A stretch of DNA of 44,135 bases from an uncultured Pelagibacteraceae bacterium (lineage in GTDB: Bacteria; Pseudomonadota; Alphaproteobacteria; Pelagibacterales; Pelagibacteraceae), in NCBI GenBank assembly GCA_902599665.1, contig CACKGK010000011.1:1-44135 (forward strand). Direction: 5' to 3'. The notes below the pieces were generated by a model, which saw only the letters and a program-made list of their open reading frames with translations, was not told where the DNA came from and made no database searches. The position numbers and the translations under genes were made by a program. Of the stretch, positions 15,774-32,118 are shown piece by piece (within the stretch, counting starts at the first letter, position 1; each line of letters starts with the position of its first letter).

Positions 15774-15777
15774 ATAA

Positions 15778-16961: not shown

Positions 16962-18215
16962 ATGAGTTCAGAAACAGGAAAAATTTTAACAACTGATGGA
17001 ATTCCCTTAGAGGAAAGTCTTAAACAGGCAGAAAAGAAAAATAAAATTAAGGCCTTTCTACTAGTTGCCCCATTATTATTGTTTTTAATAATTACATACA
17101 TGATTCCAATTGGAGATATGTTTTCTAGAAGCATAGACGACAAAATGGTTACAAACATGCTTCCCAAAACTTATAAAGCAATGGAAACTTGGGATGGTAA
17201 AGAACTTCCACCAGAAGAAGTTTTTGAAGCATTTTACTTAGACTACAAAATTCTAGTTAAAAACAAAACAGCAGGAAAATTACAGACACAATTAAACTAT
17301 GAAAAAAATGGATTTAAGAGTGTTTTAAAAAAACTAGCAAGAAAACAAAAGAAATTTGAGGAGGGAAACTATAAAGAACAAATAATGAAAGTTCATAAAA
17401 GATGGAGAAATGTTGAATATTGGAGAGCAATTAAAAGAAGAGCTCCATCTTATACATATTCAAAATACCTTAAAGGTGTAGACATGTACTCCAATGAAGA
17501 TGGAAAGGTTGTTCAAGTTTCTGAGGATAGAAGAATTCATAGAATTTTATGGATAAGAACAGTTGAGGTAGCTTTTTTTGTTACTTTATTTTGTTTTTTG
17601 ATGGCTTACCCAATTGCACATTTACTGGCAACTTTGCCAATGAAATATAGTAATTTACTTATGATTTGTGTTCTTCTTCCTTTCTGGACCTCTTTACTTG
17701 TAAGAACTGCTAGTTGGATGATTTTGTTACAGCAACAAGGGATTGTGAATGATTTCTTTGTTTGGACAGGTCTTGTTGCAGACGATAACAGACCTGAGAT
17801 GATGTACAATAAAACTGGAACTTACGTAGCAATGACTCAAATACTTTTACCTTTTATGGTTTTACCTTTGTATAGTGTTATGAAAACGATCTCTCCAAGT
17901 CTTATGAGAGCTGGTAAGTCTTTAGGCGCAACTCCAGCGGTTGCATTTTTTAAAGTTTATTTTCCACTTACAATTCCAGGAATAGGAGCAGGTTGTCTAT
18001 TAGTGTTTATTTTAGCAATTGGCTATTATATTACACCAGCACTTGTTGGAGGTGCATCTGGAACACTTATTAGTAATCAAATAGCATATCATATGAAAAG
18101 TACTTTAGATTGGAGTTTTGCATCTGCAATGGGTCTGATGCTTTTAACAGGCGTGTTAGTAATTTATTGGATCTATAATAAACTTGTGGGAGTTGATAAC
18201 ATCAAATTAGGTTAA
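16962..18215 (+). CDS. ABC transporter permease, PotB type with long N-terminal loop
   Basis: The 417-residue protein is much longer than the roughly 285 residues of E. coli PotB. Membrane helix 1 lies at about 27-47; a hydrophilic, lysine-rich stretch of some 130 residues follows (about 55-185), then the standard five-helix permease core. The EAA-type ATPase-contact loop is visible around MRAGKSLGATPAVAFFKVYFPLTIPGI. By PotB topology the inserted stretch faces the periplasm. The extended form is known in alphaproteobacterial PotB relatives. The start codon directly abuts the terminator hairpin, so there is no separate Shine-Dalgarno; no later Met is suitable before helix 1. It pairs with the permease starting 2 bases after its stop. 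Confidence 0.88.
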   Translation: MSSETGKILTTDGIPLEESLKQAEKKNKIKAFLLVAPLLLFLIITYMIPIGDMFSRSIDDKMVTNMLPKTYKAMETWDGKELPPEEVFEAFYLDYKILVKNKTAGKLQTQLNYEKNGFKSVLKKLARKQKKFEEGNYKEQIMKVHKRWRNVEYWRAIKRRAPSYTYSKYLKGVDMYSNEDGKVVQVSEDRRIHRILWIRTVEVAFFVTLFCFLMAYPIAHLLATLPMKYSNLLMICVLLPFWTSLLVRTASWMILLQQQGIVNDFFVWTGLVADDNRPEMMYNKTGTYVAMTQILLPFMVLPLYSVMKTISPSLMRAGKSLGATPAVAFFKVYFPLTIPGIGAGCLLVFILAIGYYITPALVGGASGTLISNQIAYHMKSTLDWSFASAMGLMLLTGVLVIYWIYNKLVGVDNIKLG

Positions 18216-18217
18216 TT

Positions 18218-19072
18218 ATGGCATTACCAAAGTATACAGAACCGCATTATAGAATTTGGCATTACTTTTATTTATTAATATGTGGTTGTGTCTTTTTCTT
18301 TTTGATAGCTCCTTTATTTGTAATTTTTCCGTTGTCTTTTAATGCTGAGGAGTTTTTGGTTTTTTCTGATGGAATGAAAAGGTTAGATCCTGATGCATTC
18401 TCTTTAAGATGGTATAAAGACATGATTTATGGAACAAAAAATCCATGGGGTTTGGCTGCAAGAAATAGTTTTATAATTGCAATTTTTGCAACATTGGGAT
18501 CAATTATTTTAGGTACTCTTGCTGCATTAGGCTTAAGCAGTAGACATATGCCTTACAAGGGTTTGATAATGGCAATTTTAATTTCGCCAATGATAGTTCC
18601 GTTAATTATTTCTGGGGTAGCGATTTTCTTTTTCATGGCTAAGGTAGGTTTGGCAGCAACTCATTTAGGTATTATATTGGCACATATAATTCTTGGAACT
18701 CCGTTTGTGGTAATAACTGTAACTGCAACACTTTCAGGTTTTGATCACAGTATTACACGTGCTGCTTCAAGTCTTGGAAGTAGTCCATACAATACATTTA
18801 TGAAGATTACTTTACCTTTAATATTACCTGGAGTTATTTCTGGTGGTCTTTTTGCTTTTGTAACCTCTTTTGATGAGGTGGTAGTTGTATTATTCTTAGC
18901 TGGCTTAGATAATACTACAATTCCAATACAAATGTGGACAGGGCTTAGAGAACAATTAAGTCCGACAATATTAGCTGTTGCAACCTGTTTGATTATATTA
19001 TCAGTATTAATTTTATTAACTGCTGAACTTTTAAGAAGAAGATCTGAGAGGTTAAGAGGAATAAATAGATAG
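18218..19072 (+). CDS. ABC transporter permease, PotC type
   Basis: This 284-residue membrane protein has six predicted helices, as in PotC/PotI. The ATPase-contact EAA loop is present as ITRAASSLGSSPYNTFMKITLPLILPGVISG. Helix 1 (about 15-40) is followed by the periplasmic NAEEFLVFSDGMKRLDPDAFSLRWYKD segment that typifies the family (F-L-x-W-Y). It starts two bases after the PotB-like gene and forms the heterodimeric channel with it. It ends one base before the convergent thiolase gene, so the operon ends here without an obvious terminator. Confidence 0.9.
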   Translation: MALPKYTEPHYRIWHYFYLLICGCVFFFLIAPLFVIFPLSFNAEEFLVFSDGMKRLDPDAFSLRWYKDMIYGTKNPWGLAARNSFIIAIFATLGSIILGTLAALGLSSRHMPYKGLIMAILISPMIVPLIISGVAIFFFMAKVGLAATHLGIILAHIILGTPFVVITVTATLSGFDHSITRAASSLGSSPYNTFMKITLPLILPGVISGGLFAFVTSFDEVVVVLFLAGLDNTTIPIQMWTGLREQLSPTILAVATCLIILSVLILLTAELLRRRSERLRGINR

Positions 19073-19073: not shown

Positions 19074-20198
19074 TTAATTGACACTCTCAATTACTGTTGC
19101 AATTCCCATTCCTAAACCAATACACTGAGTAGAAAGAGCGTATTTTTTATTTTCTCGTTTTAATAAATCAGCTGCTTTACCAGTAATTCTTGCACCTGTT
19201 GCACCAAGTGGATGCCCCAGGGCAAGAGCTCCACCATCTAAATTAACTTTATTTTTATCTATACCTAAATCTTTAATGCACGCTAATGATTGAGAAGCAA
19301 AAGCTTCGTTCAATTCAACAATATCAATTTGATCAGCTGACAAGTTAGCTCTCTTTAAAGCTTTTTTTGATGCACCAATTGGACCTAGACCCATGTAATC
19401 AGGGTCACAACCCTCAACAGCTGTAGATACTATTCTTCCTAAAATATTTAAATTATTTTCTCTTGCATAATTTTCCTCACAAATTAGAGTTGCCGCAGCA
19501 CCGTCTGTTAATGGTGATGAAGTTGCTGCTGTAACTGTTCCATTTTCGTCAAAAGCAAGTTTTAAACCATCTAATTTTTCCATTGTGCTATTTGGTCTAA
19601 TGTTTCCATCAGTATCGCAATCACCAATTGATACGATTTCATTCTTAAAATTCCCTTTGGTTTGTGCTTCATGTGCTTTTTGATGACTTGATATAGCAAA
19701 CTCTTGTTGTTCATTTCTTGAAATGTTATATTTTCTAGCAACATTTTCTGCAGTTGTTCCCATTGAAAAATAAACATGTGGATTATCTGTCTTACTTTCA
19801 GGGTAGGGGATTGGTTCAAAACCAGTATTTACTCTCGTCATGCTTTCTACTCCACCACAAACAAATACTTTTCCAGCACCCAATGAAATTTTACCAGCTG
19901 CAATATGAATAGCTTCCATTGATGAACCACACCATCTATCTACTGTCATGCCTGAGGTTTTAACATTCATACCACTTAGAAAAGTTGTCAACTTTCCAAT
20001 ATTAAAACTTTGTTCTCCTGTTTGAAATGCACAACCAACTACGATATCTTCAATGTCATCTTTTTTAACATTTGATTTTGATACTAAATCTTTAATTACT
20101 TCTGCTAATAGATTAACCGGTTTTGTGTCTATTAAAGCACCTTTTCTAGCCATAGTAAAAGGTGATCTTGAAAATCCTGCTATAACTGGTTTAAACAT
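19074..20198 (-). CDS. Acetyl-CoA acyltransferase (thiolase), FadA/PcaF-like
   Basis: At 374 residues this is a complete, slightly short thiolase. The nucleophile is Cys90 (VDRWCGSS), with the NEAFA motif at 297-301, His329 (GGALALGHPLGATGAR) and the acid/base Cys359 (QCIGLGMG). It cleaves 3-ketoacyl-CoA with CoA, or condenses acyl-CoAs. In position it is the last gene of the minus-strand catabolic operon, 15 bases after the DmdA-like gene, suggesting the pathway ends in acyl-CoA units. The FadN-type partner is at 32808-35030, 13 kb away. Biosynthetic and degradative thiolases cannot be separated with certainty by eye, but the degradative type seems more likely. Confidence 0.9.
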   Translation of the reverse strand: MFKPVIAGFSRSPFTMARKGALIDTKPVNLLAEVIKDLVSKSNVKKDDIEDIVVGCAFQTGEQSFNIGKLTTFLSGMNVKTSGMTVDRWCGSSMEAIHIAAGKISLGAGKVFVCGGVESMTRVNTGFEPIPYPESKTDNPHVYFSMGTTAENVARKYNISRNEQQEFAISSHQKAHEAQTKGNFKNEIVSIGDCDTDGNIRPNSTMEKLDGLKLAFDENGTVTAATSSPLTDGAAATLICEENYARENNLNILGRIVSTAVEGCDPDYMGLGPIGASKKALKRANLSADQIDIVELNEAFASQSLACIKDLGIDKNKVNLDGGALALGHPLGATGARITGKAADLLKRENKKYALSTQCIGLGMGIATVIESVN

Positions 20199-20213
20199 AA
20201 TTTAAATATAAGG

Positions 20214-21380
20214 TTAATCAGGAAATGGTAAAGAAGTTATAATGCCTTTTCTGTTTTTTCCATTAAAAGTGTTTATAAAAACTTCATTCCCCAAATCCCA
20301 AAAATCTCTATTTATCATTGATAAACCTATATTTTTCTTAATTCTTGGGGAATAAATTCCGGAAGCAATTTGTCCAATCTTTTTATTGTTTTTTGAGTAT
20401 ACCGGCAAAGGAACTCCTGTTGGTTTACAGGGTTCACCATCAAAAATTATTCCTCTCATCTGTTGTTTAATTCCTTCAGATTGGATCTTTCTCAAAGCAT
20501 GTTTTCCAATAAAATCATGATCATCTTCTTGTTTACAATATTTCTCTAGATTGCATTCTAGTGGATTATTTTCTCTAGTGAAATCATTGCCATAGGACAT
20601 AAGTCCTGCCTCAATTCTATCAATGAGGTTTGGACATCCTGGAGATATATTAAATTTTTGACCATTATCCCAAACAATATCCCAAAGCTTTTCACCAAGT
20701 TCAATTTCATTAAAATGAGTTTCAAATCCTTTGAAATAAATTTCAAAACCATCTTGCTTGCTATAACCTGACCTCGCGATTATTTGTTTTGTACCTAAAA
20801 AGTCAAAAACTTTAAAATTGAAAAATTTTAATTTTTTTATGTCTTCACCAAATATTGAAACCAAAAGGTCTTCGGATTTTGGGCCTTGAATAGCCAATGG
20901 ATAAACATCTGGCTCTACTATTTCAACATTATATCCAGAACCTAATGCAATACCTTTTGCCCATAGAAGAATATCTGAGTCAGCTATTGAAATCCAAAAC
21001 ATATCATCGTCTAGTTTAAGTAAAACAGGATCATTAATCATTCCTGCGGTCTCATCTATTATTGGAATATAAAAACATTTTCCAGTTTCCATTTTTTTTA
21101 TTGAGCGAGGTGTCATTTTTTGTACAAGTTTTGCTGCATCAGGACCTGAGATTTGTACTTGTCTTTGGCAAGATACATCCCAGACCTGAACTTCCTTTCT
21201 TAAATGCCAGTAATCTTCCTCAACTGAGTTTTTAAATCCTTTTGGTAACAACATGTGGTTTACAACGGTAAAATCTGACACGCCACATTCTTCAACCTTA
21301 TTAGTAAATGGAGTACGCCTTATACGTCTTGACATATTTAATTTAATATTTTTTTGATGTATTAAATTTTCACCACTCAT
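20214..21380 (-). CDS. DmdA-like (GcvT-family) tetrahydrofolate-dependent demethylase
   Basis: This 388-residue protein belongs to the GcvT superfamily and is closest in appearance to DMSP demethylase DmdA: the start SRRIRRTPFTNKVEECGV, NHMLLP, VQVWDVSCQRQVQISGPDA and LVQKMTPR match the DmdA pattern, as do YGNDFTRENNPLEC and GCPNLIDRIEAGL. DmdA moves a methyl from DMSP to tetrahydrofolate, giving methylmercaptopropionate. Where I recall a Trp in DmdA (RSGWSKQ), this protein has Tyr (RSGYSKQ), so another substrate is possible. No dmdB, dmdC or dmdD is beside it. A paralogous, more distant GcvT-family gene lies at 25336-26553 in the same operon. Start chosen at the first ATG, giving a short extra N-terminus. 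Confidence 0.75.
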   Translation of the reverse strand: MSGENLIHQKNIKLNMSRRIRRTPFTNKVEECGVSDFTVVNHMLLPKGFKNSVEEDYWHLRKEVQVWDVSCQRQVQISGPDAAKLVQKMTPRSIKKMETGKCFYIPIIDETAGMINDPVLLKLDDDMFWISIADSDILLWAKGIALGSGYNVEIVEPDVYPLAIQGPKSEDLLVSIFGEDIKKLKFFNFKVFDFLGTKQIIARSGYSKQDGFEIYFKGFETHFNEIELGEKLWDIVWDNGQKFNISPGCPNLIDRIEAGLMSYGNDFTRENNPLECNLEKYCKQEDDHDFIGKHALRKIQSEGIKQQMRGIIFDGEPCKPTGVPLPVYSKNNKKIGQIASGIYSPRIKKNIGLSMINRDFWDLGNEVFINTFNGKNRKGIITSLPFPD

Positions 21381-21381
21381 T

Positions 21382-21717
21382 CTATTTTGACCACCACACA
21401 GTGTAGCTATTTTTAGAAATTATTATGGGTATATGATATTTTTTATTATTATCTTCCATTTTAAATTTAATATTTATTTCAGAAATAATTCTTTTCTCAG
21501 AAAAATAATCCCCAGTTTTGCAAATCATTTCATATTCGCACTTGGTATCATCATCACTTAGATCAAATTCTTTATGTATTCTACCACCATCATCAGATTT
21601 ACTTTCACAGAAAATTTCTTTATCTCCATTTTTTTTTATTTGATAAATTATTACATCAATATTCCCAGCATGAGATCCATTAGTAGCATCTAATAAGTGT
21701 GATGAAAATATTGCCAT
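21382..21717 (-). CDS. Diverged 5-hydroxyisourate hydrolase / transthyretin-like protein
   Basis: At 111 residues it has the size and strand order of HIU hydrolases. Conserved parts are SSHLLDATNGSHAGNI (catalytic-type His7), DGGR with Arg46, the strand TGDYFSEK and KYHIPIIIS with His95. These three residues match the HIUase catalytic His, Arg and His. The C-terminal signature YRGS that closes the HIUase active site is missing; the protein ends YTVWWSK. HIUase opens the ring of 5-hydroxyisourate in urate breakdown, but no urate oxidase or OHCU decarboxylase is present, so this may hydrolyse a different cyclic amide. It is packed between the DmdA-like and TPP-enzyme genes with 1-base gaps, suggesting a coupled role. 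Confidence 0.72.
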   Translation of the reverse strand: MAIFSSHLLDATNGSHAGNIDVIIYQIKKNGDKEIFCESKSDDGGRIHKEFDLSDDDTKCEYEMICKTGDYFSEKRIISEINIKFKMEDNNKKYHIPIIISKNSYTVWWSK

Positions 21718-21718
21718 T

Positions 21719-23461
21719 TTATTCTATTGATGACTTTTCTCTTTTGCTTGCAACTGCAGAGACTATTGGGCTTAATACTGGTTTTGCTTTAACATTTACA
21801 CATGCAGGTTTTCCACTTTCCATTGCCCTTTTAAGTGCCGGTGCTAGCTCTTCTCTTTTATTAACTAATTCTCCATACCCTCCAAAACCCTCAAAAATCT
21901 TATGAAATGGGATGTCTCTAAAATCAGTTGCAACACTTTTTCCACTTTTAAATAATCTTTCTTGTTGTTGTCCAATTGAGGCCAATCCACCATTATTATC
22001 AATTACAACAGTAATAGGTTTTTTTTCATAAAATACACTTTCAATAGACATACCTCCTGATAAAAACGCACCATCTCCACTTATAAGAACAACATTTGAA
22101 TCTGGATTATGATTTTTGGCAGATAAAGCAAACGAAACACCAACACCTAACATACTAAATGTTCCAGGATGTAAGATGCCTTTTAATTTTTTACCTTTTG
22201 CACCTGCAATATTAATTGCAATTTCTGACCAGAAATGTGTATTTCCTCCATCTATAACAAGCCAGTCATTTTCGCCCATTGCTTCTTGGACATCTAATGA
22301 AAGTTGTAGAGGATGGATTTTCCCTCCATTTTTTTTTGATGCCTCAGCCTCTATCTCTAAGTCTTTCAAGGATTTATCTACCCATTCTTTTTTCTTTTTT
22401 TTGTTTTCTTCGAACCAAGTTGTGTCTAAAGTCCACTTATTATTTTTCTTTAAATTAGATAATGTATCTAGAAAAACACCAGGATCACTCAGTAAACAAA
22501 AATCAGCTGCTCTATTAAGTTCTACTTCCTCATGAGAACCATTTATACAAACTAACTTTGATGATTTAGGTATAAAAGGTGGATTTCCAAAATTCATTTG
22601 ATTGTCTAAACGCGCCCCAACTACAAGTACTAAATCTGAATTTTGTAGTGCATATTCTGAGGGAGGATATTGGTGTATATCCGCCAAACCCATATAAGCA
22701 TTTGCTTCCTCACCTAATAATTTTTGATGATATGGGACATTAAAAATTGGTATATTTAAATTATTACCAGCTGCTTCAAGATTTTTTTCTGAATGCGACC
22801 ACCAAACTCCATGACCACCTATTATAATTGGTTTTTTAGCATTACAAGCAAGTTCTAAAACTTCTGATAGAGAATTTGGATCTGGCCAAGCTTTTGCTAA
22901 AGGTTTAGCTTTATGAGAAAATGGTCTTTCTTCTAATCCTACTTCTTCTGCAAAAGATGAAAACATTATATCTACTGGAAGACTAAGATGTACTGCACCT
23001 GGATAACCGTTGGTGGCAATGTGATATGCTTTGTCGACAAATTCTCTTATTCTAGTTCCATCGGTAATGCTTGCACTGTATTTTGTTAAAGGGGCTGCAA
23101 TTGAAACATCATCTATTTCTTTAAAACCACCTGAACCTTGCCTTTTAAGGCTGCTTGAACCTGTAATATAAATAACAGGACTTCTCTCACCCCAAGCCTC
23201 CATCATAGAGGGAACTGCGTTTGTAAATCCCTCTGGTCCAACTAAGCATACTGATGGTTTACGAGTAATTCTTGTATTGCCATCTGCTAAATGACCTGCA
23301 ATTTGTTCATGAGGAGTATTTATCACTTCAATTTGACACTCAGCAAATCCTTCAATTGCTGGATTACAAAAACCTCCCGCAAGAGTAAAAACTTTACTAA
23401 TTCCCTTATCTTTTAGAGCTCTAGCTAATAACGCTCCACCTCTAATTTTATTCTCAGCCAT
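21719..23461 (-). CDS. Thiamine-pyrophosphate-dependent enzyme, acetolactate-synthase-like
   Basis: This 580-residue protein has the three-domain layout of TPP enzymes: N-terminal pyrimidine-binding domain with the activating Glu52 (TPHEQIAGHLADG), a central domain, and the C-terminal PP domain with GDG at 462-464 and NN at 489-490, the expected GDG-x24-28-NN spacing. The family covers acetolactate synthase, oxalyl-CoA decarboxylase, 2-hydroxyacyl-CoA lyase, benzoylformate decarboxylase and others. There is no regulatory subunit gene nearby, arguing against biosynthetic acetolactate synthase. The next gene upstream in the operon, with no gap, is an FMN alpha-hydroxyacid oxidase whose 2-oxo acid product would be a natural substrate for such a decarboxylase or lyase. 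The reaction is inferred only. Confidence 0.82.
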   Translation of the reverse strand: MAENKIRGGALLARALKDKGISKVFTLAGGFCNPAIEGFAECQIEVINTPHEQIAGHLADGNTRITRKPSVCLVGPEGFTNAVPSMMEAWGERSPVIYITGSSSLKRQGSGGFKEIDDVSIAAPLTKYSASITDGTRIREFVDKAYHIATNGYPGAVHLSLPVDIMFSSFAEEVGLEERPFSHKAKPLAKAWPDPNSLSEVLELACNAKKPIIIGGHGVWWSHSEKNLEAAGNNLNIPIFNVPYHQKLLGEEANAYMGLADIHQYPPSEYALQNSDLVLVVGARLDNQMNFGNPPFIPKSSKLVCINGSHEEVELNRAADFCLLSDPGVFLDTLSNLKKNNKWTLDTTWFEENKKKKKEWVDKSLKDLEIEAEASKKNGGKIHPLQLSLDVQEAMGENDWLVIDGGNTHFWSEIAINIAGAKGKKLKGILHPGTFSMLGVGVSFALSAKNHNPDSNVVLISGDGAFLSGGMSIESVFYEKKPITVVIDNNGGLASIGQQQERLFKSGKSVATDFRDIPFHKIFEGFGGYGELVNKREELAPALKRAMESGKPACVNVKAKPVLSPIVSAVASKREKSSIE

Positions 23462-24625
23462 CTAGTAGTTTACCTTATTAATAGTATTATCTATTACTAT
23501 CTCAGATGTTACATCATTAATATCATTTAATCCAACTAACCCTAGAGTGGTACTAACTTCTTCTTTTATAATCTCTACTATTCTTCTCAATCCTTTTTTT
23601 CCATCTGCTCCCATTGCATACATAACGGGTCTTCCAATCATTGTATAATCTGCACCAAACGCAAGCGCTCTTACTATATCACTTCCACTTCTTATCCCAC
23701 TATCAAAGATTAAAGGAAAATTACTTCCAACCGATTTTCTAATTAGTGGAAGCATATTTATCGCTGCTGTAGCACTGTCTAATTGTCTACCTCCATGGTT
23801 TGAAACTTGAATAGCATCCGCACCAGCTTCTTTTATTTTTATTGCGTCATCAGGAGACATTACTCCCTTAACAATAAGTTTGCCTTTCCATTTATCCCTT
23901 ACTCTTTTAAGTGTATTCCAATCAGTAGAACCTCTACTTTCTTTTCTTTTAAAAATTCCATCTCCACTTTTTGATGTTACATAATTCATAGGCTTAGGAA
24001 TTCCACTCATTAAAGTTGATAGAGACCAAGTTGGATGAGTTGCAAAATCAAAAAATTGTTTTGGACCTATCTTAAAAGGATAAGAGAAACCATTTTTGTC
24101 ATCTCTGGTTCTTCTAGATAAAACTGGCACATCCACAGTTAAAATTGCTACCTCGTAACCAGTATTTTTTGCTCTTTCCAAAAGCTCCATCACGAAATTT
24201 TCATCTTGGAAAATATATAACTGCATCCAAGAATGACCTTCTGAGAGTTCATACATATTTTCTAATGTTGTAGTAGAGGCCATAGAAACAGAAGTTGGAA
24301 TATTATTTCTTGCACTTTCAGCGGCTAACATAGAATCTGCTCCCGGCCAAGACAAATTAGTCATTCCCATAGGAGCAAAACCAAATGGAAAATTAAATTC
24401 ATATCCTAAAACCTTTTTTTTAAGTGATCTTTTTTCAACGTTTCTTAAAACTTTAGGCTCTAGTCTTATTTGGTCAAGAGCAATACTGTTGATTTCAGCA
24501 AGTTTCTCATCTCCAGACGCACCATCAATAAAATCAAAAACTAATTTGGGAAGACGTTTACGTGATAATTCTCTTGCATCTTTTATGCTAAAGATTTTTT
24601 GACTTGGTAAAATATTATCACTCAT
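23462..24625 (-). CDS. FMN-dependent alpha-hydroxyacid dehydrogenase/oxidase (LldD/glycolate oxidase family)
   Basis: The 387-residue length is typical. Catalytic His277 and Arg280 lie in SNHGGRQLDS, the FMN-phosphate loop is FDSGIRSGSDIVRALAFGAD, Lys253 sits in IVKGVMSPDDA, and Tyr137 is in WMQLYIF. The family oxidises L-2-hydroxy acids such as lactate, glycolate and mandelate to 2-oxo acids, passing electrons to oxygen or the quinone pool. It directly abuts the TPP-enzyme gene and overlaps the S51 peptidase gene by 8 bases. Compared with membrane LldD, the substrate loop is not strongly hydrophobic, so cytosolic oxidase and membrane dehydrogenase are both possible. Confidence 0.87.
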   Translation of the reverse strand: MSDNILPSQKIFSIKDARELSRKRLPKLVFDFIDGASGDEKLAEINSIALDQIRLEPKVLRNVEKRSLKKKVLGYEFNFPFGFAPMGMTNLSWPGADSMLAAESARNNIPTSVSMASTTTLENMYELSEGHSWMQLYIFQDENFVMELLERAKNTGYEVAILTVDVPVLSRRTRDDKNGFSYPFKIGPKQFFDFATHPTWSLSTLMSGIPKPMNYVTSKSGDGIFKRKESRGSTDWNTLKRVRDKWKGKLIVKGVMSPDDAIKIKEAGADAIQVSNHGGRQLDSATAAINMLPLIRKSVGSNFPLIFDSGIRSGSDIVRALAFGADYTMIGRPVMYAMGADGKKGLRRIVEIIKEEVSTTLGLVGLNDINDVTSEIVIDNTINKVNY

Positions 24626-25310
24626 TATTAATTTTAATGTATTCTTTTAAGTTAAATTGTTTATTTTGATTAACAAAATAAGCATTATGACCTTTTCTAG
24701 AAGAATAAACCTCTGTTGGTTTTCCGTCAATAAAAAGTACCGCAACACCATCATCAACAGCAATACCATCTGGTAAAGTTTTGTTTTTAATATTTTCTCT
24801 ATATTTTTCCGCTCTTTTTGAGTCCGAATAATGTGGTGTAAAACTTCCGGTTAATAATCCAATGCCATTCATAGATTTAAATCCAGGTCCATCTGAGTCA
24901 GTCAGAAAGCAATCGAACCAACACGCGGCACCAGCACTTACACCTGATAGAATTATACCAGAATTATAAACTTCTTTGAAAAGACCAATTAAATTATTTT
25001 CTTTCCAATATTTCAGCATGAATTTTGTATTTCCACCACCAACGTAAACCACATCAAGATTTGAAAGCCAATTTTCAAAACCTTTTACGCTAGAGATAAG
25101 ATTAAAGTGAGACACATTTAAACCTGAAACTTCAAACCTTTTGTAAAAGAGCTTAGTTTTGCTTGAGTCATCGTTACTAGCGGTCGGTAAAAATCCTAAT
25201 GAGCAATTTTTTTTGTTGATACAGTCTAAAATGAATTGTTCCTGATCATCATCTTGGTTATGAGTAAACCCTCCACCTCCAATAGTAATTATTTTTTTTT
25301 TGATCTTCAC
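24618..25310 (-). CDS. S51-family peptidase (PepE/cyanophycinase-like)
   Basis: This 230-residue protein has the class I glutamine-amidotransferase-like fold of peptidase family S51. The nucleophile is Ser125 in GVSAGA, preceded by GGGNTKFML, with His160 in TPHYSDS as likely general base. S51 includes the Asp-dipeptidase PepE and cyanophycinase, which act on aspartyl bonds. There is no signal peptide, so it is cytosolic. It is second in the minus-strand operon, 25 bases after the GcvT-family gene and overlapping the FMN oxidase gene by 8 bases. Given the adjacent peptide-type ABC importer, a role in trimming an imported aspartyl or similar amide conjugate is conceivable but unproven. Confidence 0.8.
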   Translation of the reverse strand: MKIKKKIITIGGGGFTHNQDDDQEQFILDCINKKNCSLGFLPTASNDDSSKTKLFYKRFEVSGLNVSHFNLISSVKGFENWLSNLDVVYVGGGNTKFMLKYWKENNLIGLFKEVYNSGIILSGVSAGAACWFDCFLTDSDGPGFKSMNGIGLLTGSFTPHYSDSKRAEKYRENIKNKTLPDGIAVDDGVAVLFIDGKPTEVYSSRKGHNAYFVNQNKQFNLKEYIKINNE

Positions 25311-25335
25311 TAATTATATTTTTAACAATTAAAGC

Positions 25336-26553
25336 TTAAACACCAATCCAAGGTTTTGGCTCATTTGGGATATTTCTGTCTATACCTCTTACTATTTCTC
25401 CCTTTTCATCATACATTGGTAATTTACAGATTTGTCCTTTGTGTAATTTCCCGTCTGTGCATTTAACATAAACTATATCACCCGGCCCATTTTCATTGTT
25501 GTTAAGGTGCACTATACCAACACCGCAAACTTGATAAGGTGACCATGTGCTAGACGTTATTTTACCAATCTCTTTTTCATTTAATTTAATACTCTCCCCT
25601 TTAATTGCAGTTCCAGACATAACCCGAATTCCCCAAGTCTTACATTTTTTCTCTGATGACATAAGTGCATCTCTTCCAATAAAATCTTCTTTATCAAAAT
25701 TTATAAATCTTCCAAGGCCAACTGAAAAAGGATTGGTATTTTTTGAAAAATCTTGTCCAGCAGATAAAAGTCCAGCTTCAATTCTTCTACATCTAAATCC
25801 TGGTGTAGCCACCAAAATCATACCTAATTTTTTTCCTTGCTCAAGAATATAATCACCAATTTTCTCTGTTTCGTTTTCTGGCCTAAAATAAATTTCCCAA
25901 CCAAGTTCATTAGTAAAACCACTTCTGCTTACTATTACTTTTTGATCTAAAATTTGTAACTCTTTCCAATCAAAATATTTCCAATCGTTCTCTGAAAAAC
26001 CATTACTTAAATTTTCAAGTAGTTTCATGGACAATGGGCCTTGAACTTGACTTACCCAAACATTTGGATCATTAATTTCTACATTCAAATTTTTAGAATG
26101 TGCTTTATACCAAGAAAATAGGTCACCATCAGCTTGCGCAAACCAATATTTATCTTTATCAATTCTTAAAAGTATACCATCCGTAATCATCCCACCATCA
26201 TGATAACAAGCAAATTGATACGAACATCTTCCCACAGCGATTTTTGAAATATCTCTCGGAAATATTTTTTGTAAAAATTTAAGTGAATCTGGTCCAGATA
26301 TTTCAAATGGATGTTCTCCTGTATGCCTAAAAATAATTTCTCTCCTCGCCTTCCAATACATTTCTTCAGAACTAACATTAGATAATTTTTCAAGTGTTAA
26401 TCTTCCTGCGTAATTTGAATATTCTGGATCATATGGCAATTCTTGATAGGTTAAGGGGTGAACCTGAATTGATCTTGCAAGCTCTAATGAATTGGAATTT
26501 TCAAGGCTAACTGGCTTTACAGTAAACCTATATTTATTGATTAAATTGTTCAT
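25336..26553 (-). CDS. GcvT-family aminomethyltransferase/demethylase
   Basis: The protein has 405 residues with the GcvT fold, N-terminal folate-binding domain and C-terminal barrel. Visible landmarks are HTGEHPFEISGPDSLKFL, the RSGFTNELGWEIYF motif, GFRCRRIEAGLLSAGQDF and FIGRDAL. GcvT relatives transfer a one-carbon unit from an N- or S-methyl donor to tetrahydrofolate. It differs from canonical glycine-cleavage GcvT by an extra N-terminal segment and no gcvH/gcvP neighbours, so a stand-alone demethylase is likely. It is the first gene of the minus-strand operon and is divergent, across 116 bases, from the importer operon. A second GcvT-family protein lies at the other end of the same operon. 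Confidence 0.8.
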   Translation of the reverse strand: MNNLINKYRFTVKPVSLENSNSLELARSIQVHPLTYQELPYDPEYSNYAGRLTLEKLSNVSSEEMYWKARREIIFRHTGEHPFEISGPDSLKFLQKIFPRDISKIAVGRCSYQFACYHDGGMITDGILLRIDKDKYWFAQADGDLFSWYKAHSKNLNVEINDPNVWVSQVQGPLSMKLLENLSNGFSENDWKYFDWKELQILDQKVIVSRSGFTNELGWEIYFRPENETEKIGDYILEQGKKLGMILVATPGFRCRRIEAGLLSAGQDFSKNTNPFSVGLGRFINFDKEDFIGRDALMSSEKKCKTWGIRVMSGTAIKGESIKLNEKEIGKITSSTWSPYQVCGVGIVHLNNNENGPGDIVYVKCTDGKLHKGQICKLPMYDEKGEIVRGIDRNIPNEPKPWIGV

Positions 26554-26609
26554 TACTATTTTTGTAGATAATCAGAATACATCAATAAAATAAATAAAAA
26601 ATGTCCATT

Positions 26610-26636
26610 TTGACTGTTGCTATATAAGTATCTAAT
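26610..26636 (+). promoter_or_regulatory. Candidate promoter for the dipeptide-type importer operon
   Basis: TTGACT (26610-26615) and TCTAAT (26631-26636, five of six to the -10 consensus) are 15 bases apart, slightly short of the optimal spacing. They lie in the 116-base divergent spacer between the GcvT-family gene and the binding-protein gene. The -35 hexamer is identical to the one upstream of the other binding-protein gene at 15712. A minus-strand promoter for the divergent operon must also be here, but I could not place it. Confidence 0.4.
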
Positions 26637-26669
26637 TGTTACCTTTTGTTTTTTTAAAGAGAGGAAATT

Positions 26670-28157
26670 ATGAAAAACATTTTAAAATTGATATCAATTT
26701 CATTGGTATCACTATTTGTAACATTTTCATTTGCCAACGCTTCTAGTGGGGTTTTTAAGCTATCTCATGATCTTGGTTTTGGAAAAGATACAAATTTAGA
26801 TGCAATTACTAAAGGAAGACTATTTCAAGTAGTAATAATGACTCAAAACCGTCTTGTTAGAAAAGATCTTAAAGGAGTTACTTCTCCCGAGTTAGCTACT
26901 GACTGGTCAGGTAACGCAGACGCAACAGAGTGGACTTTTAATTTAAGGAAAGGTGTTAAATTCCATGATGGATCTGATTTTGATGCAGAGGATGTAAAAT
27001 ACTCTTTGATGAGAGTTAAAGATCCTGAAATTGGTTCACCCGCTAAAAAAAGTATGAGTGCAGTAACAGATATTGAAGTTGTTGACTCCCATACAGTAAA
27101 AATAAAGTTGAACACATCATTCGCAGATTTTCCACTTTTATTAACTGATTATAGATTAAGAATGATACCAAATGGATCAGGTGATACTATTGGGAAAACA
27201 GGTATTGGAACAGGACCGTTTATGGTTGATAAATTTGATGCAGAGGGAACTACAATTCTTAAAGCTAACCCAAATTATTGGGAAGGAGCACCTAAGCTCG
27301 CTGAGGTACACGTAATAGCTATCCCAGATGGTCAAGCTAGAATTCAAGCCTTGCTGACAGGTCAAATAGATATGAATAGATATGTTCCATTCAATCAGAA
27401 AAAAATTTTTGATGGTAATTCAAAATTTAACGTTTCAGTGATACCTACAGGAAACTGGAGAGGTATGGTAATGAGAACCGACGTAGCTCCATTTGATGAC
27501 CCTAGAGTAAGAAAAGCTGTCAGAATAGCTGTGGATAGACAAGAATTAGTTGATCTTGTTATGGCTGGAGCAGCAACTGTATCTTGCGATACTCCTGTTG
27601 CACCATCAGATCAATATAGAATGAATAAGAATTGTCCACCACAACCAGCTACAGCAAAAAAATTACTTGCAGAGGCGGGTTATCCAGATGGTATTGATTT
27701 CACAATTCACGTATCTACAAAAGAACCAACATGGCCAACTATTGCTGAGGTTTTACAACAACAATTTGCTAAAGCTAATATCAGAGCAGATATTCAAATG
27801 ACACCTTCAAAAAGTTACTGGAATGAAACTTGGATGAAAAAGCCTGTAGCAATGACACGTTGGAACGAAAGACCAGCAGATAGTATTTTGCATGAAGCTT
27901 ATCACAGTGAAGCAAAATGGAACGAGTCATATTATAAAAGTGCTTCTTTTGATAAGAATTTAGCTGACGCAAGAGGTGAGTTAAAGTTCAGCAAAAGAAA
28001 AGCAGCATACATTAATGCTCAGAAAACATTATGGGAAGAGTCTGGAACAATGATTCCTTACCATGTGTCTCGACTTGTTGTTACATCTTCTAGAGTGAAA
28101 AATCTTGACGAAGTTGAGTATTTTTCAATTAGATGGCACACAGTAAGCGTTCAGTAA
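26670..28157 (+). CDS. Solute-binding protein family 5 (DppA/OppA/NikA-like)
   Basis: This 495-residue protein has a signal peptide (MKNILKLISISLVSLFVTF, cleavage probably after ANA) and the SBP_bac_5 architecture. Family landmarks are ATEWTFNLRKGVKFHDGSDFDAEDVKYS, TGIGTGPFMVDKF, NPNYWEGAPKLAEV and DDPRVRKAVRIAVDRQELVD. The family binds peptides, nickel, opines and many non-peptide solutes. A good Shine-Dalgarno (GAGG at 26661-26664, five bases before the ATG) fixes the start. A 12-bp hairpin follows the stop. It is divergent from the operon containing the two demethylase-like genes, so the ligand is likely the substrate of that pathway rather than a peptide; this is inference. Confidence 0.88.
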   Translation: MKNILKLISISLVSLFVTFSFANASSGVFKLSHDLGFGKDTNLDAITKGRLFQVVIMTQNRLVRKDLKGVTSPELATDWSGNADATEWTFNLRKGVKFHDGSDFDAEDVKYSLMRVKDPEIGSPAKKSMSAVTDIEVVDSHTVKIKLNTSFADFPLLLTDYRLRMIPNGSGDTIGKTGIGTGPFMVDKFDAEGTTILKANPNYWEGAPKLAEVHVIAIPDGQARIQALLTGQIDMNRYVPFNQKKIFDGNSKFNVSVIPTGNWRGMVMRTDVAPFDDPRVRKAVRIAVDRQELVDLVMAGAATVSCDTPVAPSDQYRMNKNCPPQPATAKKLLAEAGYPDGIDFTIHVSTKEPTWPTIAEVLQQQFAKANIRADIQMTPSKSYWNETWMKKPVAMTRWNERPADSILHEAYHSEAKWNESYYKSASFDKNLADARGELKFSKRKAAYINAQKTLWEESGTMIPYHVSRLVVTSSRVKNLDEVEYFSIRWHTVSVQ

Positions 28158-28166
28158 TAACTTCTG

Positions 28167-28196
28167 TTTTACAGGCCTTTAATTAGGCCTGTAAAA
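28167..28196. other. Perfect 12-bp inverted repeat downstream of the binding-protein gene
   Basis: TTTTACAGGCCT (28167-28178) and AGGCCTGTAAAA (28185-28196) form a 12-bp stem with a six-base loop, nine bases after the stop codon. The stem starts with T and ends with A, and no T run follows, so it is not a classical intrinsic terminator on the plus strand. An mRNA 3'-stabilising or partial-termination hairpin between binding protein and permease is more likely. Confidence 0.75.
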
Positions 28197-28239
28197 CCTC
28201 TTTCATTTCAAAATAAATAATTTAAAATTTAATATTGTT

Positions 28240-29196
28240 ATGCTTTTTTTAATTATAAAGAGAATTTTATTAGGTTTTATTACTTTATTTATTGTATCTA
28301 TAATTACATTTGTAGGCACTGAAGTTTTACCTGGGGATGCTTGCACAACTTATCTAGAAAGGCAGGCTTTTGGTGAACAATTAGAAGCTTGTTATAGAAG
28401 GCTTGGTTTAAATGTTCCAGCATATGAGAGATATATATCGTGGGCATTAAATGCTATTCAAGGAGATTTTGGTTATTCTTTAAGTGGAGAGATGCCTATA
28501 AAAGATGTTTTAGGACCTAGAATTAAAAATTCACTAGTATTGGCATCAGCTGCAATTTTTATAGGTATTCCAATAGCTTTAATTTTAGGAATTATCACTG
28601 CTCTGTGGAGGGATAAGTTACCTGATGTCGCAATATCAACAGTTACAATATTTGCAATGACGATTCCAGAATTTATCAGTGCTACTTTATTAATTTTAAT
28701 TATTGCAATCTGGCTAGAGTGGTTGCCTGGTATCGTAATAGTTCCAACTGATGTATCTTTCCTAGAGTTGTTACCAAATATAATTTTACCAGTTGTTGCT
28801 ATAGCGATGATCATGACAGCTCACATGGCGCGAATGGTAAGATCGAGTGTAATTCAAGTAATGGCAAGTGAATATGTTCAAATGGCAATTCTTAAAGGAG
28901 TTCCTTATTGGAAAATGGTTTTCAAACATGTTTTACCAAATGCTTTATTGCCTGCCATCAATGTTGTAGCTTTAACTATTGCATGGCTTTTAGGTGGGGT
29001 TGTAGTAACTGAAGTTGTCTTTAATTATCCTGGCCTTGGAAGATTAGTTATTGAGTCAATTTCAAACAGAGACTTGCCAACAGTTCAAGCATTAGCAATA
29101 ATTCTTGCATCTATCTATGTAAGTATAAATTTATTAGCTGATCTATTGACACTAATGCTTAATCCTAGATTAAAAACGTTACAAATAAGAAAATAA
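28240..29196 (+). CDS. ABC transporter permease, DppB/OppB/NikB type
   Basis: This 318-residue membrane protein starts MLFLIIKRILLGFITLFIVSIITFV, the canonical DppB/OppB first helix, and has six predicted helices. The periplasmic RRLGLNVPAYERYISW segment and the EAA loop (YVQMAILKGVPYWKMVFKHVLPNALLPAIN) are typical of the family. The GGVVVTEVVFNYPGLGRLV stretch near the C-terminus is highly characteristic. It forms the translocation pore with the DppC-like protein encoded 1 base downstream. The 82-base gap before it contains the hairpin but no clear Shine-Dalgarno. Confidence 0.92.
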   Translation: MLFLIIKRILLGFITLFIVSIITFVGTEVLPGDACTTYLERQAFGEQLEACYRRLGLNVPAYERYISWALNAIQGDFGYSLSGEMPIKDVLGPRIKNSLVLASAAIFIGIPIALILGIITALWRDKLPDVAISTVTIFAMTIPEFISATLLILIIAIWLEWLPGIVIVPTDVSFLELLPNIILPVVAIAMIMTAHMARMVRSSVIQVMASEYVQMAILKGVPYWKMVFKHVLPNALLPAINVVALTIAWLLGGVVVTEVVFNYPGLGRLVIESISNRDLPTVQALAIILASIYVSINLLADLLTLMLNPRLKTLQIRK

Positions 29197-29197
29197 T

Positions 29198-30091
29198 ATG
29201 AAAGTGGATAATATTTATAAAGAGGAGAAGAAAAGTGCTTTTGCAAAATTATCTGAAATTATAATTACAATGGCTTCAAGACCATCTGGACTAATTGGTC
29301 TTAGTATTTTAGTTTTTCATATAATTCTTGCATTTATAAGCCCTTATATTGCACCTCATGATTTTAAAGCTATAGACCCTACCTTAATGCTTCAGGCTCC
29401 TTCAGCTGAATATTGGTTTGGAACTGATGATCTTGGGAGAGATGTTTTTACTAGAACAATTTTAGGGGGAAGAACGGCTCTCACAATAACTTTCTTTGGA
29501 TCTTTAATAGCATTATTGTGGGGTGGTCTTTTAGGAATATTTTGTGGATTGGTTGGAGGAAAAATTGATGATGTAGTTATGAGAATTGTAGATGCGTTCT
29601 TATCTATTCCATGGATTTTAGCAATGTTATTGATTGTTTCTTTGTTAGGCACATCTACTGAAGTATTAATACCTGCTTTAGGTTTTTTTTATGGTAAAGG
29701 AATTGTAAGAGTTGCAAGAGCAGCAACGCATGATGTTATTGCAAAAGACTTTATAGTTTCCGCAAGAGCAAGAGGACATAGTAATTTTTCAATTATTTGG
29801 AATGAGATAATTCCTAATGTAAGAGATGCAATCTTAGTTGAAGGTGCTATGCGATGGTCATGGATGCTGCTTGGTTTTAGTTCTCTTTCTTTTTTAGGTT
29901 TTGGGGTGAGCCCTCCAACACCAGACTGGGGATTAATGATATCAAATGCAAGAGGGTTAATGTCTTTCGCTTATTGGGCAGTAATAGCGCCTATAGTTGG
30001 ATTAAGTAGTTTAATTATTGGTATTAATTTAACAGCAGATGCTTTTGCCAAAGCTTTAGGTATAGATAGATCAACTAAAGCCCCTGTTTAA
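29198..30091 (+). CDS. ABC transporter permease, DppC/OppC/NikC type
   Basis: This 297-residue protein has the N-terminal cytosolic segment and first helix of OppC_N, then the signature PSAEYWFGTDDLGRDVFTR (family consensus HWFGTDxxGRDVxSR), the helix pack, and the EAA loop KDFIVSARARGHSNFSIIWNEIIPN. It ends with SFLGFGVSPPTPDWGLMISNAR, also diagnostic. It heterodimerises with the DppB-like permease and is coupled to the ATPase, whose gene starts two bases after its stop. Confidence 0.92.
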   Translation: MKVDNIYKEEKKSAFAKLSEIIITMASRPSGLIGLSILVFHIILAFISPYIAPHDFKAIDPTLMLQAPSAEYWFGTDDLGRDVFTRTILGGRTALTITFFGSLIALLWGGLLGIFCGLVGGKIDDVVMRIVDAFLSIPWILAMLLIVSLLGTSTEVLIPALGFFYGKGIVRVARAATHDVIAKDFIVSARARGHSNFSIIWNEIIPNVRDAILVEGAMRWSWMLLGFSSLSFLGFGVSPPTPDWGLMISNARGLMSFAYWAVIAPIVGLSSLIIGINLTADAFAKALGIDRSTKAPV

Positions 30092-30093
30092 TT

Positions 30094-32118
30094 ATGACAG
30101 ATATAATTCAAAAAGTAAAAAATCTATCTATTGGATTTAGAAGTAAAAAGGGCGAAGAAATCTTAATTTTAAAGAATATAACTACAAATATTAAAAAGGG
30201 TGAGACAGTTGGAATAGTAGGGGAGTCTGGTTCTGGAAAAAGCACATTAGCATTAGCAATGATGGGATATGTAAAACACGGTCTTTATACTGTTGGAGGA
30301 GAATGTGAGTTTAATTCATCAAATCTACTGAAAATGAAAAGTAAAGAATTAGAAAAAATTAGAGGTAGAAAGATAGCAATGATTCCACAAAATGCAGGTC
30401 AAGCATTGACACCAAACTTAAAAATAGGTTATCAAATTGATGAAGCTTTGCAATTACACTCTGATTTAAATGAAAAAGAGAGAGAAAAAAAAATTTCAGA
30501 ACTATTGAATAAAGTTAGACTTCCTTCACCGGAAACAATTGCCCTTAGATATCCTCATGAACTTTCAGGAGGACAACAGCAAAGAGTTGCTGTAGCTATG
30601 GCTTTAGCTGGAACTCCGGATTTACTTCTTTTAGATGAACCAACAACTGGATTAGATGTAACAACTCAAGCTCATGTATTAGAACTTCTCAATTTTATTG
30701 CGAAAGATACTGGAACATCAATGGTTTATGTAAGTCATGACTTAGGAGCTATTGCTCAAGTGAGTGATAGAATTATTGTTATGTATTCAGGAGAAATTGT
30801 TTTGGAAGGTCCATCAAGAGATATCCTTAAAAGACCAATTCATCCTTATACCCATGGATTGCTTAAATCTATACCAAAATTATCTTTAGCTGGTCTTCCA
30901 GAGTCGATGCCTGGTAGTCAACCTCAACCAGGTACAATTCAAAGTGGTTGTAGTTTTTTTGATAGATGTAACTTTTCAGATGAAAATTGTAAAAATAATT
31001 CTCCTAAATTAGAATTTTTAGAAGATTTAAATACTAGTGTTAGATGTTTTAATCATGAAAAACTTGTGAAAGAGAGTCGAGTAAGCCAAACAGTTAATAA
31101 GATTAAGAATAAATCACAAGATAAAGAAATATTAAATTTATCAGAAGTATCTATAAGTTACGCTAAACAAAAACTTTTAGATCAAATTTTCAATAGAATT
31201 TCTGACAATAACCCTACAGTTAAAGATATTAATATTAATATTAAAAAAGGAGAGACAATAGCTCTAGTAGGAGAGTCAGGAAGTGGAAAATCAACAATCC
31301 TTAAATCAATTGCCGGACTACTTAGAACTAAAGATGGCCTAATAAGATTTGATGAAAATAGAAATTTATCATCTGATTTGAAAGAAAGAGATCCCAATGA
31401 TTTAAGAATTATTCAATTAATATTTCAAAATCCAGATGAGTCTTTGAATCCAAACCACACAGTAGAAGAAATTATTGCACAACCACTAAAATTATATTTT
31501 GGATTAAAAGGTGAAGAATTAAAAAAAAATATTATAGATCTATTACAAAAAGTAAGGCTTGGAGAATTTTATACTTCTAGATATCCAAGACAATTATCTG
31601 GTGGTGAAAAACAAAGAGTAGCGGTTGCAAGAGCATTTGCTGCAAAACCAGATATTATTTTATGTGATGAGGTAACATCTGCTTTAGATGTTTCTGTGCA
31701 AGCTGCTGTATTAAATTTATTACAACAACTAAAAGAAGATTTTGGGACTACATATATCTTCGTATCACATGATTTAGCTGTTGTAAGATCAATTAGTGAT
31801 AGAGTAGCAGTTCTTTATCAAGGAAGACTTTGTGAAGTTGGACCTTCAAATGATGTTTATAAGTTTCCATCTCACCCTTATACAGAAGTTTTGTTGGGTG
31901 CTGTCTTAGAACCAGATCCAGATATAAAACCTAAATTAGTTGCTGAGGATATTGTTGAAGAAAGACCTCCTGAAAAAGGATGTAGTTTTCAAGGCAGATG
32001 CTCAAGAATTGTCGGAGATATTTGTAAAAAAGAAGTTCCACCATGGCAACTAACAGATAGTGGTAACGCTATCAGATGTCATATACCTATTAAAGAATTA
32101 CAAAAAGAACAATTTTAA
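30094..32118 (+). CDS. Fused double ATPase of a dipeptide/nickel-type ABC importer (DppD-DppF fusion)
   Basis: The 674-residue protein contains two complete ATPase units in one chain. Unit 1: Walker A GESGSGKST (about 49-57), signature LSGGQQQRVAVAMAL, Walker B LLLLDEPTTGLD. Unit 2: Walker A GESGSGKST (about 392-400), signature LSGGEKQRVAVARAF, Walker B IILCDEVTSALD. Each unit ends with the oligopeptide-importer tail bearing a cysteine cluster (GCSFFDRCNF...C...RC and GCSFQGRCS...C...RC), the pattern of the [4Fe-4S]-type motif in some DppD/OppF proteins. Fusion of the two ATPases is known in several alphaproteobacterial systems. Unit 2 has Glu-Val rather than Glu-Pro after Walker B. It completes the importer with the three genes before it. 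Confidence 0.92.
   Translation: MTDIIQKVKNLSIGFRSKKGEEILILKNITTNIKKGETVGIVGESGSGKSTLALAMMGYVKHGLYTVGGECEFNSSNLLKMKSKELEKIRGRKIAMIPQNAGQALTPNLKIGYQIDEALQLHSDLNEKEREKKISELLNKVRLPSPETIALRYPHELSGGQQQRVAVAMALAGTPDLLLLDEPTTGLDVTTQAHVLELLNFIAKDTGTSMVYVSHDLGAIAQVSDRIIVMYSGEIVLEGPSRDILKRPIHPYTHGLLKSIPKLSLAGLPESMPGSQPQPGTIQSGCSFFDRCNFSDENCKNNSPKLEFLEDLNTSVRCFNHEKLVKESRVSQTVNKIKNKSQDKEILNLSEVSISYAKQKLLDQIFNRISDNNPTVKDININIKKGETIALVGESGSGKSTILKSIAGLLRTKDGLIRFDENRNLSSDLKERDPNDLRIIQLIFQNPDESLNPNHTVEEIIAQPLKLYFGLKGEELKKNIIDLLQKVRLGEFYTSRYPRQLSGGEKQRVAVARAFAAKPDIILCDEVTSALDVSVQAAVLNLLQQLKEDFGTTYIFVSHDLAVVRSISDRVAVLYQGRLCEVGPSNDVYKFPSHPYTEVLLGAVLEPDPDIKPKLVAEDIVEERPPEKGCSFQGRCSRIVGDICKKEVPPWQLTDSGNAIRCHIPIKELQKEQF

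Follow-up and report, generated by a model that had tools for sequence, protein, structure and literature searches.

A conserved gene block with DmdA-like, TPP-dependent and HIUase-like enzymes beside a dipeptide-type importer in Pelagibacteraceae and other bacteria

We analysed a stretch of DNA of 44,135 nucleotides (the window), contig 11 of the 1.2-Mb, 87% complete draft genome of an uncultured Pelagibacteraceae bacterium (SAR11 group). Seven packed open reading frames (ORFs) on its minus strand form an operon divergent from the genes of an ATP-binding cassette (ABC) importer with an SBP_bac_5 binding protein. In reading order, the operon encodes a GcvT-superfamily protein (GcvT1), a predicted S51-family serine hydrolase, a flavin mononucleotide (FMN)-dependent alpha-hydroxy-acid oxidase/dehydrogenase (FMNdh), a thiamine pyrophosphate (TPP)-dependent enzyme, a protein with the fold of 5-hydroxyisourate hydrolase (HIUase) and transthyretin, a second GcvT-superfamily protein (DmdA2) that resembles the dimethylsulfoniopropionate (DMSP) demethylase DmdA, and a thiolase. 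This block is real and conserved, and brings known enzyme families together in an unfamiliar combination. We call it undescribed because no paper on it was found in the literature searched, which was largely without subscription journals and without preprints; we know of no named pathway with this combination.

Our preferred reading, which we hold tentatively and on the strength of sequence comparison, is that the block is a catabolic module with its own importer. It would take up an onium-methylated compound that carries or yields a 2-hydroxy acid, and strip it for one-carbon units.

Layout and conservation of the block

A preliminary description of the window had proposed an uptake-and-catabolism unit, in which a seven-gene minus-strand operon with “0-25-base gaps or overlaps” diverges from a complete SBP_bac_5 importer. 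The ORF coordinates are the same in our analysis, with distances of 25, −8, 0, 1, 1 and 15 bases between consecutive operon genes in reading order, and the importer gene set starts 116 bases from the operon on the plus strand. Pfam and NCBIfam searches bear out the named families; the second permease was named without a family search.

Within Pelagibacteraceae, the exact seven-gene order was kept in 72 of the 74 loci with enough flanking sequence, so the grouping exceeds chance. In each of the two exceptions a single gene, FMNdh in L065 and GcvT1 in L113, matched in two pieces; such split matches are possible frame breaks or assembly faults. Of 66 loci with flanks long enough for the comparison, 65 have the full set of 11 genes, thiolase to ATPase, in the same arrangement. 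The 96 Pelagibacteraceae loci collected include at least six records twice (L026/L045, L028/L094, L029/L105, L030/L102, L031/L109 and L032/L120). Among 197 genomes sampled from the family, the window’s own included, 17 carried the TPP gene and the same 17 carried the importer binding protein, while in the remaining 180 neither passed the limits set (1e-60 for the TPP gene, 1e-100 for the binding protein). Given this shared presence and the conserved 11-gene order, the block is an accessory unit, gained or lost jointly with its importer, in agreement with the uptake-and-catabolism unit first proposed. The TPP protein of the window is 99–100% identical to copies in uncultured Pelagibacteraceae records; for named genomes, the best 80 of 273 relatives were considered.

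Besides the window’s own genome, TPP orthologues were found in 5 of 385 genomes of the class (69–81% identity) and 1 of 398 of the phylum (66%), searches in which at most three candidates were scored per genome, so that misses are possible. Searches closer to these hits gave matches in 32 of 121 genomes from the order of genome G407 (31 orthologues; the other genome, G1028, has only a 37% relative), and orthologues in 12 of 248 genomes from the family of G864, 43 of 120 from the order of G356, 5 of 14 from the order of G559 and 3 of 58 from the family of G1001. Judged by sequence identity the TPP subfamily is clear-cut, since orthologues range from 62 to 100% and the next relatives among the matches listed stand at 37–38%. 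A plasmid search with the TPP protein returned only relatives at 28–29%.

A four-gene core, FMNdh-TPP-HIUase-DmdA2, in this order and on one strand, was present in 30 of the 39 outside loci fetched and under six of their seven family labels; these loci had been chosen for spread over the labels, not randomly. The core is kept in larger genomes of other families too. The other outside loci are L215, without FMNdh, L264, cut by a contig end, and seven with only the TPP and HIUase-like genes (L143, L206, L207, L222, L260, L261 and L263). The TPP and HIUase-like genes were adjacent on one strand in all 64 loci checked, separated by a median of 2 bases (range −8 to 141; 56 loci measured, namely 31 from outside the family and 25 of the 96 Pelagibacteraceae loci). 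In the loci tabulated, the HIUase-like gene is a more constant neighbour of the TPP gene than FMNdh; as loci were found via the TPP gene, the HIUase figure is unbiased and covers TPP-bearing loci. The neighbourhood is thus conserved well beyond one strain, in and outside Pelagibacteraceae; a lack of such conservation, which the preliminary description had named as refuting its proposal, was not observed.

The importer shares its SBP_bac_5 protein, permease and DppDF-type ATPase with the dipeptide, glutathione and nickel ABC importers, but its binding protein scores below every NCBIfam cut-off listed. In the order of G407, 13 of 20 loci have the S51 gene and an SBP_bac_5 importer of the window’s type together with the core (two of the other seven are short contigs), and so do L146 and L213.

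Table 1 Genes of the operon, in reading order, and of the divergent importer, with window positions and search scores.
Gene product	Position	Strand	Evidence
GcvT1, GcvT-superfamily, first operon gene	25336..26553	−	GCV_T with GCV_T_C, 141 bits; DmdA model 188 bits, cut-off 410
S51-family serine hydrolase (predicted)	24618..25310	−	Peptidase_S51, 130 bits; 8-base overlap with the FMN gene
FMN-dependent alpha-hydroxy-acid oxidase/dehydrogenase (FMNdh)	23462..24625	−	FMN_dh, 394 bits
TPP-dependent enzyme, own subfamily in the HACL/OXC/benzaldehyde lyase group	21719..23461	−	Three domains, TPP_enzyme_N/M/C
HIUase/transthyretin-fold protein without YRGS	21382..21717	−	PF00576, 70 bits; TIGR02962, 69 bits, cut-off 87
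DmdA2, GcvT-superfamily	20214..21380	−	GCV_T, 140 bits; NF009133, 531 bits, cut-off 410
Thiolase, acetyl-CoA C-acyltransferase subfamily, last operon gene	19074..20198	−	Thiolase_N/C; TIGR01930, 421 bits, cut-off 241
Periplasmic binding protein, SBP_bac_5	26670..28157	+	PF00496, 294 bits
Importer permease, DppB/OppB type	28240..29196	+	NCBIfam Opp2B, 244 bits, below cut-off 350
Importer permease, DppC type	29198..30091	+	ORF; named from its place between DppB and ATPase and from homology to panel loci
Fused double ATPase, DppD-DppF like	30094..32118	+	Two ABC_tran stretches with oligo_HPY; PRK11308, 474 bits, cut-off 408

DmdA2 and the class of substrate

The two demethylase-like proteins of the preliminary description both match GCV_T, but only DmdA2 passes the NCBI cut-off for DMSP demethylase; GcvT1 falls far short of it and is a distant relative of DmdA (Table 1). 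The best Protein Data Bank (PDB) match of DmdA2 is P. ubique DmdA (3tfh, 1e-114). Within the 56-locus set, matches to GcvT1 of at least 50% identity came only from Pelagibacteraceae and from the order of G356. Seventeen of 20 TPP-bearing genomes tested have an operon DmdA2 copy, and all 17 copies exceed the DmdA cut-off. In six of these genomes (G407, G573, G936, G1182, G1210 and G1341) the operon copy is the sole gene to do so, and annotation alone would therefore credit them with DMSP demethylation. DmdA-like copies scoring 353–405 bits were present in 10 of the 20. Phylogenetic analysis placed the operon copies in one clade (support 99/94), beside a SAR11 type and a mixed group that includes the roseobacter type.

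The window’s own genome gave 11 matches to the DmdA model, two of them over the cut-off: the operon copy and a copy on contig C16. The latter (571 bits, 48% identical to DmdA2) lies beside AMP-binding and acyl-CoA dehydrogenase genes that are dmdB- and dmdC-like, a context resembled by the dmdC-dmdD-dmdB-dmdA layout of Phaeobacter inhibens. A third DmdA-like copy, at positions 80306–81388 of contig C5, is below the cut-off (375 versus 410 bits). This 1.2-Mb genome has 11 GCV_T matches, on contigs C2, C5, C11 and C16, six of them inside open frames of 788–1005 amino acids.

One alternative to our preferred reading is that DmdA2 is a DMSP demethylase of another clade and that the block serves DMSP or a relative such as 4-dimethylsulfonio-2-hydroxybutyrate, with the FMN and TPP enzymes taking the 2-hydroxy acid side. 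We consider this unlikely, although several observations fit it. Every operon copy tested passes the DmdA cut-off, its clade lies within the range of known DmdA types, and a 2-hydroxy sulfonium acid would suit FMNdh. DmdA converts DMSP to 3-methylmercaptopropionate with tetrahydrofolate, and a protein like DmdA2 would most naturally be read as passing methyl groups to folate too. CoA-type genes lie near some copies: a thiolase in SAR11, enoyl-CoA hydratase in both L139 and L220, and acyl-CoA dehydrogenase in L212 as well as L220. They agree with a DMSP-like route, but equally with any other.

A single residue does not settle the matter. Residue W171, in the alignment numbering of the paper concerned, is called key for DMSP in the part of it available to us (PMC7487153); we equated it with W197 of 3tfh from the offset of two neighbouring residues. 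This position is Tyr in 18 of 18 operon copies. P. inhibens DmdA, along with three more copies of the roseobacter type, has Tyr there too, and a P. inhibens dmdA deletion mutant loses its DMSP response under standard conditions, according to the accessible sections of the report (PMC12366255). The substitution was rejected as proof that DmdA2 is something other than a DMSP demethylase: because P. inhibens DmdA shares the Tyr and is needed for the DMSP response, the W197 position decides nothing. Position 32 of 3tfh separates the aligned operon and non-operon copies better: of 69 operon copies, 68 have V and one a gap, and all 15 non-operon DmdA-type proteins have Y. At position 63, 68 of the 69 operon copies have Q, versus E in 14 of the 15 others, the exception (L239) having Q. 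The 69 copies are the 18 above plus 51 from the 56-locus set, some of them counted twice.

Positions 32 and 63 may both speak against the DMSP alternative, and so does the second passing copy in the same genome, in its dmdB/dmdC-like company. No AMP-ligase or dmdB-like gene was recognised beside the operon DmdA2 copies in the neighbour gene lists or among the Pfam families of the window; FMNdh, the TPP enzyme and the HIUase-like protein are encoded there instead. The window operon has no dmdB/dmdC/dmdD neighbourhood, a feature that gives a hint but is not decisive. For DMSP, the importer that has been characterised is DmpXWV of R. pomeroyi, and a SAR11 DmpX binds DMSP as well; in the portion of the study at hand, DmpXWV is named apart from dipeptide-type importers (PMC10030565). 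A DMSP pathway would also leave the HIUase-like, S51 and MttB-like genes unexplained.

Equally improbable, in our judgement, is that the substrate is a quaternary amine of the betaine family rather than a sulfonium, with DmdA2 and GcvT1 acting as N-demethylases. Genes for MttB-like proteins (PF06253) stand beside the core in the order of G407 and in family f23; in all, they were found near it in 8 of the 56 loci and in L266 and L267. In L215, the TPP-HIUase-DmdA2 genes are followed by a carnitine 3-dehydrogenase gene over its cut-off (647 versus 592 bits) and a keto-acid cleavage enzyme gene below its own cut-off, with soxBDAG-like genes nearby (assigned by eye). A homocysteine-methyltransferase-like gene in L139 has betaine-homocysteine methyltransferase as its best model (87 versus a cut-off of 338). 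Against an amine, the carnitine genes occur in one locus only, the MttB-like proteins fall under the trimethylamine cut-off (329 versus 525), and DmdA relatives of known activity act on a sulfonium. Among the 56 loci, GcvT1 was found alone in 24, and together with a homocysteine-methyltransferase-like gene in three, all from the order of G356. The window itself holds two genes of the homocysteine S-methyltransferase family (PF02574), at 5340–6329 and 7963–8877.

The TPP enzyme, its HIUase-like partner and the other operon proteins

None of the 25 best NCBIfam models listed for the TPP enzyme reaches its cut-off. By profile and fold searches, the protein is nearest to 2-hydroxyacyl-CoA lyase (HACL), oxalyl-CoA decarboxylase (OXC) and benzaldehyde lyase, HACL and OXC being its nearest PDB entries, but it is only about 25% identical to them, has a constant HIUase-like partner, and falls well below the curated HACL/OXC models (NF058623, 243 versus 600 bits; TIGR03254, 199 versus 739; NF006721, 214 versus 557). 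Glyoxylate carboligase, considered as another identity, was not among the 25 models. Within the subfamily, 29 aligned sequences average 78% identity per column. The AlphaFold2 model (mean predicted local distance difference test score, pLDDT, 77.7; root mean square deviation about 17 Å) has unreliable domain packing and was not used for reading the active site. PhyH genes lie beside the TPP-HIUase pair in L206 (by Pfam) and in L207, L221 and L263 (by eye), recalling alpha-oxidation, which pairs PhyH with HACL.

True HIUases combine a catalytic His, Arg and His with a C-terminal YRGS motif. The HIUase-like protein keeps the three residues (H7, R46 and H95, aligned with HIUases in the PDB) and the fold: its AlphaFold2 model (pLDDT 95.6) superimposes on E. 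coli HIUase (2g2n) with a TM-score of 0.87. It departs from HIUase in the missing YRGS, replaced by a Trp-containing end in all 36 sequences aligned, in two further invariant residues (H16 and W108, alongside the three above), and in a score below the TIGR02962 equivalog cut-off (Table 1). The protein is therefore probably a hydrolase with a changed substrate that acts with the TPP enzyme, and the constant adjacency of the two genes suggests that its substrate is the TPP product or that the two proteins form a complex. A role in purine or urate catabolism, to which the HIUase label would point, was set aside in view of the lost YRGS and the low score. Neither uricase, OHCU decarboxylase, allantoinase nor any other purine-catabolism family appeared in the Pfam results for the subset of window ORFs scanned (two of these had no family). 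Also doubtful is a single amide-cleavage step by the S51 and HIUase-like proteins together, as first proposed, because the latter lacks YRGS throughout and accompanies the TPP gene at every locus checked, even where no S51 gene was found.

FMNdh matches L-lactate oxidase and (S)-mandelate dehydrogenase in the PDB, and the catalytic motif SNHG.R.L occurs as SNHGGRQL in 46 of 50 copies, the window protein included, the other four being without the exact pattern. These matches invite comparison with the mandelate pathway, in which mdlB and mdlC encode enzymes of the same two families, an FMN dehydrogenase and a TPP decarboxylase. Read in this way, FMNdh and the TPP enzyme would convert a 2-hydroxy acid to an aldehyde, and the other genes would be a separate one-carbon unit. 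This seems quite improbable: the TPP subfamily is a different one, benzoylformate decarboxylase is not among the matches listed, no aldehyde dehydrogenase gene is constant near the core, and the HIUase-like gene is more constant than FMNdh itself. Demethylases, a HIUase-like protein and an S51 hydrolase are, moreover, not known from the mandelate pathway. Least probable of all is that two or more unrelated units stand side by side by chance in streamlined genomes: SAR11 genomes do keep gene order generally, and the thiolase and a FadB-like gene may be an unrelated FadAB pair flanking the block, but retention of the core in larger genomes of other families and the match between importer and TPP gene presence already disfavour it.

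The S51 protein has the nucleophile Ser of GxSAG in all 37 copies and, in an aligned column, the His that follows the nucleophile likewise in all 37 (as the literal pattern PHY in 16); its matches to PepE and cyanophycinase models are far below their cut-offs. The place of the thiolase is conserved in SAR11 loci, and outside the family only relatives at 36–37% were found, in three loci and never within the core. To judge from these homology searches, the thiolase is not a core gene but belongs to the SAR11 version of the block, which revises the thiolysis step of the preliminary description. A FadB-like protein of 740 amino acids is encoded across the block from the thiolase, at 32808–35030, and the two genes may form a separate FadAB pair.

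A proposed pathway and its implications

The enzyme families are still most naturally read as outlined in the preliminary description, with methyl transfer to folate, 2-hydroxy acid oxidation and a TPP-dependent step. In the pathway that we favour, the SBP_bac_5 importer would bring the compound in, perhaps as an amide conjugate, and the S51 hydrolase would open the amide. DmdA2, assisted by GcvT1 in SAR11 and by MttB-like or homocysteine-methyltransferase-like proteins in some lineages, would pass the methyl groups to folate or another carrier. FMNdh would oxidise the 2-hydroxy acid to the 2-oxo acid, and the TPP enzyme may then cleave or decarboxylate this by HACL/OXC-type chemistry. The HIUase-like protein would hydrolyse the TPP product, perhaps to formate, and the leftover carbon would enter beta-oxidation, with the thiolase taking part in SAR11. 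Overall, methyl and formyl units would be harvested stepwise. What the sequences show is the gene families, their packing, the conserved core, a presence shared with the importer and the retention of active-site positions; from these we infer the substrate, the order of the steps, the identity of the TPP product and the formate outcome.

Formate-related genes in four loci fit such a harvest. Molybdopterin oxidoreductase and NuoEF-like genes, which we read as a putative formate dehydrogenase, come after the TPP-HIUase pair in L206 (by Pfam) and L263 (by eye) and upstream of it in L221 (by eye), and a formate-tetrahydrofolate ligase gene precedes the pair in L215. A bolder version of the proposal holds that the TPP enzyme and the YRGS-less HIUase-like protein form an undescribed two-protein lyase/hydrolase that releases formate from 2-oxo or 2-hydroxy acids, and that the operon-tied DmdA clade is not a DMSP demethylase; taken as a whole, we find this rather doubtful.

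Several observations weigh against the pathway. In seven of the 39 outside loci the TPP and HIUase-like genes occur while FMNdh and DmdA2 are missing; the pair is thus not tied to methylated substrates. Importers near the core vary by lineage (TRAP-like, Pot-type and a second SBP_bac_5 type, assigned by homology or by eye), and the imported compound may therefore differ. That MttB-like genes and GcvT1 never co-occurred in the loci examined would fit methyltransferases that differ by lineage around a common core, but this alternation follows taxonomy. Two of the four loci with formate-related genes are near-identical (L206 and its close relative L263), and the comparison does not include a background rate for such genes. 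Neither an aldehyde nor a CoA-ligase gene is a constant neighbour of the core, which places no constraint on what the TPP enzyme produces. Finally, DmdA2 may yet prove to be a DMSP demethylase of the ordinary kind.

Further genes flank the block in the window. EutA-like (198 bits, cut-off 318) and DoeA/EutD-like (452 bits, cut-off 613) genes at 12631–14547 are followed by a Pot-type ABC importer at 14593–19072, tail to tail with the operon. In L218, a EutA-like gene and PotADBC genes, 36–62% identical to window 14593–19072, precede the core, and in one record (L028/L094) no Pot importer stands between the DoeA-like gene and the thiolase. At 36581–38994 the window encodes an aldehyde dehydrogenase and a ureohydrolase that exceeds the agmatinase cut-off; in L212 and L218, too, ureohydrolase genes are found near the core.

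SAR11 and SAR116 are among the most abundant marine heterotrophs, as stated in the available parts of two papers (PMC3160333, PMC8547437). Subclades of dmdA are counted in ocean surveys, with Ca. Puniceispirillum marinum as the representative of subclade B/3 (PMC6309047, extract). Operon DmdA2 is probably dmdA clade B, provided that G407 is Ca. Puniceispirillum marinum; that the order of G407 is SAR116 is inferred likewise. For SAR116, one study reports dmdA only in the LGC2 group (PMC8547437), and in a 2025 study the presence of dmdA leads to a prediction of DMSP demethylation for most subclades (PMC12262181). The two disagree on this point and, in the sections accessible to us, neither mentions the block.

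If the operon DmdA clade is not a DMSP demethylase, part of the dmdA counts in such surveys would report another, unknown methylated compound. Should the operon copy act on another compound, DMSP predictions would have to be revised, and a new dissolved compound that these bacteria consume could be found; if DMSP is its substrate after all, the block would represent a DMSP-linked pathway that has gone unrecognised. A few purified proteins would be enough to test either outcome.

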